In this document: positions 1 through 181 of the stretch, piece after piece
Layout of the letters: each line of letters opens with the position of its first letter
Numbering within the stretch: the stretch's first letter is position 1
Source: Clostridiales bacterium
GTDB lineage: Bacteria; Bacillota; Clostridia; Oscillospirales; Oscillospiraceae
Length of the DNA: 54,430 nucleotides
Reading direction: 5' to 3'
NCBI GenBank assembly: GCA_029267755.1
Contig: JAJUHS010000002.1
Location: 1-54,430, forward strand
Notes under the pieces: generated by a model
What the model was told of the DNA's origin: nothing
Database searches by the model: none
What the model saw: the letters and a program-made list of their open reading frames with translations, nothing else
Program-made: the position numbers and the translations under genes

Positions 1-175
1 AGCTTGTCGAAAAAGTGTTTTCGACAAGCTTCTAGGGGGCATCCAATGCCCCCTAGATACGCGGCTTGCGCCGCGAAACCCCCGGTCGCGCACGATTTGC
101 GCGGGCTGAGGTATTTTTCCGAGAAGTGAATTCCCGGAAAAATAGATTTATATATCCCTGCGAGGGAGTTTTTTG
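1..175. repeat. Tandem train of stem-loops (at least six hairpins), ending in a plus-strand terminator-like hairpin
   Basis: Read directly: agcttgtcgaaaa/ttttcgacaagct (1-13/18-30), tctagggggcat/atgccccctaga (31-42/46-57), cgcggc/gccgcg (60-65/70-75), cgcgca/tgcgcg (87-92/98-103), atttttccg/cggaaaaat (113-121/135-143), tccct-gcg-aggga followed by gtttttt (155-173). May continue left of the window. Confidence 0.75.
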
Positions 176-181
176 ACAGCC

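Follow-up and report, generated by a model that had tools for sequence, protein, structure and literature searches.

Stem-loop replacing transposition has been described for IS1272 and TnSha1, members of the IS1182 family of insertion sequences (PMC4923244, PMC5678879). An attack on the 3' foot of the target stem-loop removes it, which is the outcome observed for IS1272, and an attack on the 5' foot, the hypothetical pathway b, would duplicate it (PMC5678879). Other short elements resemble the one described here in form: the RUP and BOX/SPRITE elements of pneumococcus are likewise non-coding, structured, intergenic and present in many copies, yet they are not known to seek or duplicate terminator hairpins and belong to another or an unknown IS family (PMC3049150, PMC10969869), and REP/BIME sequences are intergenic palindromes (PMC2817692), comparable to the inner part of the present element, a multi-hairpin intergenic repeat near stop codons.

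The locus analysed here lies at the left edge of a 54,430-nucleotide stretch of DNA (the window) from a Clostridiales bacterium, where a train of hairpins abuts the 3' end of polC. Positions 1-180 very probably constitute a miniature inverted-repeat element (MITE) that is moved in trans by an IS1182-family transposase and duplicates whole terminator hairpins. Such elements share with IS1272 the IS family, hairpin targets (often terminators) and little sequence preference; IS1272 chooses its target by structure, and the present elements presumably do likewise. IS1272 deletes the target hairpin without duplication, whereas these elements duplicate the hairpin in full. The parts of the locus are as follows.

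1-180, plus strand: full-length family A element, a MITE bounded by IS1182-type ends; the sequence common to about 20 copies in its own genome stops at both ends.
1-30, plus strand: left end, a 13-bp perfect inverted repeat containing the left terminal repeat TTGTCGAAAAAGT at 4-16, Spo0A-box-like; it recurs in other element families and in IS1182-family elements.
31-144, plus strand: inner module of four hairpins (31-57, 60-75, about 78-111 and 112-144), supported by covariation and a covariance model match (C17:31-144, E 1.3e-26).
155-174, plus strand: small hairpin (155-167) and T-tract (169-174), terminator-like for rightward transcription by sequence and fold.
167-179, minus strand: right terminal repeat, reading CTGTCAAAAAACT on that strand, from the motif scan.
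182-218, no strand assigned: right copy of the duplicated polC terminator hairpin, a 16-bp inverted repeat with 33 bp in common with the end of contig C105.
218-4186, minus strand: polC (ORF of 1322 amino acids), entered by the element at its 3' end; its orthologues in congeners have empty or independently filled terminators.

The original prediction, made from the sequence alone, listed six consecutive hairpins left of polC, and sequence and fold confirm all of them. The stems of 13 bp (1-13/18-30, a perfect inverted repeat), 12 bp (31-42/46-57), 6 bp (60-65/70-75) and 5 bp (155-159/163-167, with GTTTTTT directly 3' of it) are as proposed; the fourth, given as 6 bp, is present at about 78-111 in imperfect form, and the fifth, given as 9 bp, extends over 14 positions, 93% of them paired (112-125/131-144). 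A seventh hairpin of 16 bp, absent from that list, spans 182-218 just past the polC stop codon. This is the polC terminator and the duplicated target, and hence the most telling of the seven.

About 20 near-identical copies of the roughly 180-bp element are dispersed through its own genome. A BLAST search with window 1-180 returned 24 matches there, 15 of which cover 150 bases or more with an identity of about 89% or higher; the final three are short, and at least two of these are palindromes matching themselves. In a comparison of the flanks, the common sequence is bounded by AGCTTGTCGAAAAA (left) and TTTTTTGACAG (right), and a scan for the end motif gave 42 matches against 8 for the reversed control. 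The two ends form imperfect inverted repeats (CAGCTTGTCRAAAAAnT and CAGACTGTCAAAAAACT), with the consensus CAGnYTGTCRAAAAA common to the element and to IS1182-family insertion sequences of related genomes. As the ORF list shows no transposase gene within 1-180, an element with these ends is to be regarded as a MITE. It is thus short, non-coding and multi-copy, it has terminal inverted repeats in common with intact, autonomous IS1182-family transposons, and target duplications whose length varies with the hairpin accompany 34 of 43 elements, with empty sites existing as well. In each of these respects it appears to behave as an IS1182-family MITE, apart from a partner in the same, incomplete genome. 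The proposal that the array was the end of a non-autonomous element was therefore right as far as it went, since the entire element is present; the fallback, a single copy with unconserved hairpin order, does not describe what was found, as copies are many and the order is conserved.

The arms of the first hairpin had also been likened to inverted Spo0A boxes. The motif in question, TGTCRAAAAA, is the transposon end: intact IS1182-family elements and elements with TGTCAAAAAA have it at the same position. A Spo0A-regulated site was rejected on the same grounds, because the TGTCGAA motif coincides with the element end, is located at the 3' ends of genes and varies to TGTCAAA.

Of the alternatives, that of a functional structured non-coding RNA or 3'-UTR element, read rightward and ending at the T-tract 169-174, survives best, although it appears unlikely. 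The region folds stably (-85.5 kcal/mol, z -6.9, with 0 of 200 dinucleotide shuffles as stable), a T-tract stands at the element end, and the inner module covaries. A scan of named genomes for the pattern of the inner hairpins picked out Angelakisella massiliensis, Flavonifractor, Butyricicoccus and one uncultured Clostridiales MAG, bin54. In bin54 and Angelakisella the module lies within similar transposon ends, and in Flavonifractor and Butyricicoccus it occurs without such ends, just 3' of stop codons; one bare copy is situated between genes that, from reading the flanks, we take to be purH and purD. In an alignment of eight module sequences 98% of the paired cells are maintained as pairs, and 52 cells are changed on both sides as compared to 17.7 after shuffling, a signal that collapses when the arms are slid against each other. 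A symmetric stop-codon test on 50 module copies without transposon ends showed a preferred orientation: in 38 of them the stop codon of a long ORF falls at -40 to +5 of the 5' end in the sense direction, as opposed to 13 of 50 in the mirror test, and the distances cluster near 6 nt.

Several observations speak against a rightward RNA, which the original prediction had offered as one possibility and which thus lacks support. Rfam 15 yielded only chance matches in the window, none at gathering score, and among ten module-bearing loci only T-box and TPP elements outside the module. Moreover, G-U pairs make up 4.1% of module pairs in sense and 4.2% in antisense, whereas folds of shuffled sequence contain 11.5%; this equal rarity on both strands suggests that the module is kept up as DNA palindromes and not as a one-stranded RNA. 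Finally, copies of the MITE occur in both orientations, even at one and the same polC terminator. An alternative pairing of GGGGGTATC with GATACCCCC within the module was discarded, as the observed changes preserve hairpin 1 instead.

The covariance model finds the module in 19 of 149 related genomes, with at least 13 copies in one complete genome of 4.3 Mb. The module is probably a widespread multi-hairpin intergenic repeat, and cargo captured between transposon ends; it may have a role after insertion. The likeness to REP/BIME is one of form, the module being longer and composed of four ordered hairpins. Tandem arrays of two or three modules occur at five loci, including in Angelakisella (L303 and L301 in G145; L149, L202, L220). 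At another locus (L280, G127:C1:935562-937703) a module copy follows what looks like a T-box terminator and precedes the start of an acetolactate-synthase-like gene; this position would place it in the leader of the read-through mRNA.

A palindromic, REP/BIME-like repeat family, spread by another route such as a RAYT transposase and with incidental terminal repeats, had been suggested for the array. The type of repeat is apt for the inner module 31-144, which does exist as an intergenic repeat without ends; for the window element itself, a MITE, it is contradicted and very unlikely, because the same ends recur around unrelated interiors and also bound IS1182-family transposase genes. The scan for the end motif revealed a family B of 15 copies, which has the ends of family A and an unrelated interior, and in genome G005 these ends also enclose other interiors, in two additional types of element. 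One of these packages between IS1182-type ends a CATTCCGAGGAGCGAAGCGACGTGG repeat (L075, L079, L320-L329) that is present in 81 copies in 1.7 Mb, and 7 of 10 examined copies of this interior core are devoid of the ends. Since the core is found both bare and between ends, resident repeats seem to have been captured between IS1182-type ends more than once.

Family B elements (L050-L059 in G000; L061, L068 and L072 in G004) measure about 190 bp, contain a different multi-hairpin interior and, like family A, sit between duplicated terminator hairpins. In two A+B composites (L013/L050 and L016/L054; G000 C132:10409-10750 and C91:8-335) the families abut and have one end palindrome in common; at L013 a single terminator hairpin, present in two copies, encloses the entire composite, which would fit an insertion of B into the end palindrome of family A.

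No intact IS1182-family transposase was found in the element's own genome, a fragmented assembly estimated at 93% completeness, and the sole PF13751 protein encoded there, an IS5-type transposase (L060), was rejected as a mobiliser because its element has no matching ends. Related genomes, however, do contain elements of about 1.5-1.6 kb with the same ends, which code for transposases scoring 386-404 bits against the IS1182-family model NF033551 (cut-off 270) and thus belong to the family. These autonomous elements lie between directly repeated hairpins of 30, 34 and 35 bp, and three further genomes harbour others with hairpin duplications of 28, 30 and 31 bp. Genome G280 contains five IS copies of equal score, all with the same single TGA, at five sites, and four of these show duplications of 20, 22, 23 and 30 bp; a single enzyme accordingly yields duplications of different length. 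The congener G003 retains a degenerate IS1182 transposase, and intact elements of the family occur in related genera; a candidate in G037 (L067) turned out to be an internally deleted IS1182 fragment that keeps its right end. The IS1182-family insertion sequences (NCBIfam NF033551) and the MITE therefore agree in terminal repeats and flanking hairpin duplications, and differ in that the former carry a transposase and the latter carries hairpin modules in its place.

In families A and B one host hairpin is repeated to the left and right of the element. The sample comprises all 43 complete elements in the examined loci from several related genomes, mostly a few genomes, and may include some redundancy, as bin54 is possibly identical with G003. 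If an element offered more than one candidate left end, the choice fell on the candidate whose flanks matched best. A duplication was called when the score exceeded 10; this cut-off is the 99th percentile for mismatched flanks, and the observed median was 27. By this measure the whole hairpin, loops included, is directly duplicated at 34 of the 43 elements. The duplications range from 15 to 45 bp, and their length follows that of the hairpin (r=0.97 over the 34 elements), equalling the hairpin plus 1 nt in 23 cases; in nearly all, the first base after the right end is the start of the hairpin. The duplicated hairpins look like terminators: an outer T- or A-tract is present in 26 of the 34, and the stop codon of a long ORF lies within 60 nt in 26 of the 34.

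Some of the nine elements without a matching pair can be explained. One (L013) is the composite between two copies of one hairpin mentioned above, and another (L016) is a composite at a contig end. A third (L006) is likely a chimera; it and L005 (G000 C13:5334-5514 and C25:148-327, respectively) have one flank in common and differ in the other, which looks like strain mixture or a chimeric assembly. Three elements (L008, L071, L088) are flanked by two different terminator hairpins, compatible with recombination between copies and hence genome rearrangement, and at the remaining three (L012, L014, L173) a hairpin is missing from one side or from both.

The elements might also replace a terminator hairpin in the manner of IS1272, in which case the flanking hairpins would be older, unrelated terminators. 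The IS family and the kind of target are indeed alike (PMC4923244, PMC5678879), and two different side hairpins are found at three elements. Nonetheless, the chance that replacement took place is exceedingly small: a hairpin stands on both sides and is not deleted, at 34 of 43 elements the two hairpins repeat each other directly, down to the loops, and empty sites in congeners show one hairpin and not two. Group IIC introns also insert at terminator hairpins. The window element differs from them by matching no Rfam intron RNA, encoding no reverse transcriptase and having its target duplicated.

The polC locus illustrates the pattern found for these MITEs. The final 139 bases of contig C105 are identical to window 1-139 and are preceded by the left copy of the terminator hairpin, which thus lies outside the window, before C105:7130, and has 33 bp in common with the right copy; beyond it lies dnaE. 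The hairpin array does not extend beyond the window, although such an extension had been considered: the assembly broke within this repeat, which is why the left end of the element coincides with position 1. The element has evidently inserted in the polC terminator. In the congeners G001 and G002, a single hairpin and no element follow polC, and these sites are empty. In G003 the terminator hairpin occurs twice and encloses a family A element of opposite orientation, and in G004 a family B element occupies the polC terminator and runs to the contig end; to judge from these sequences, one orthologous terminator was struck three times independently. An assembly artefact, as hinted at by the position of the element at a contig start and by the chimeric-looking junctions of L005 and L006, is contradicted by about 20 copies, many well within contigs, and by other assemblies with this arrangement, one of which consists of two contigs, and is almost certainly not the explanation.

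The elements have IS1182-type ends, they are located at terminator hairpins, and a whole hairpin of any length is repeated on both sides. DDE transposases normally produce target duplications of nearly constant length, and the hairpin-dependent length is most simply accounted for by a structure-reading mechanism. The transposase would recognise the hairpin as a structure, namely an extruded cruciform, and, on each strand, join the 3' end of the element to the hairpin's 5' foot. The hairpin would then be copied by gap repair, and one terminator would become two; since the whole hairpin is copied to the far side, the duplicated DNA is as long as the hairpin that was struck. The gene-side copy would thereby be cut off from its T-tract by the element, and the tract would stay with the far copy. 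L007 and polC show this arrangement, with the element in place of the T-tract after the hairpin copy beside the gene and the tract itself after the far copy, so a terminator should survive downstream. The element would become part of the 3' untranslated region of the gene with the terminator retained, and insertions would therefore be nearly harmless.

The present elements appear to fit pathway b of PMC5678879. Taken together, it seems reasonably likely that a branch of the IS1182 family reads terminator hairpins as extruded structures and attacks their 5' feet, that secondary structure sets the duplication length, and that short derivatives repeatedly package resident multi-hairpin repeats into terminator-seeking elements. 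The literature covered contained the hairpin replacement of IS1272 and no systematic duplication of whole hairpins; ISfinder and subscription reviews were outside its scope, and priority is thus uncertain. The duplication lengths given for IS1182 in ISfinder vary widely, and single cases of hairpin duplication may therefore be on record there.

The elements would provide natural examples of an outcome previously only drawn as a possibility for IS1272 (pathway b, PMC5678879), and cruciform extrusion at terminators in living cells becomes open to genetic test. The inner module, with four covarying hairpins, is a repeat that many related genomes share and that Rfam does not list. For the host, insertion would extend mRNA 3' ends by a structured segment, and for the element, leaving a terminator on the far side may be a low-harm way to spread.
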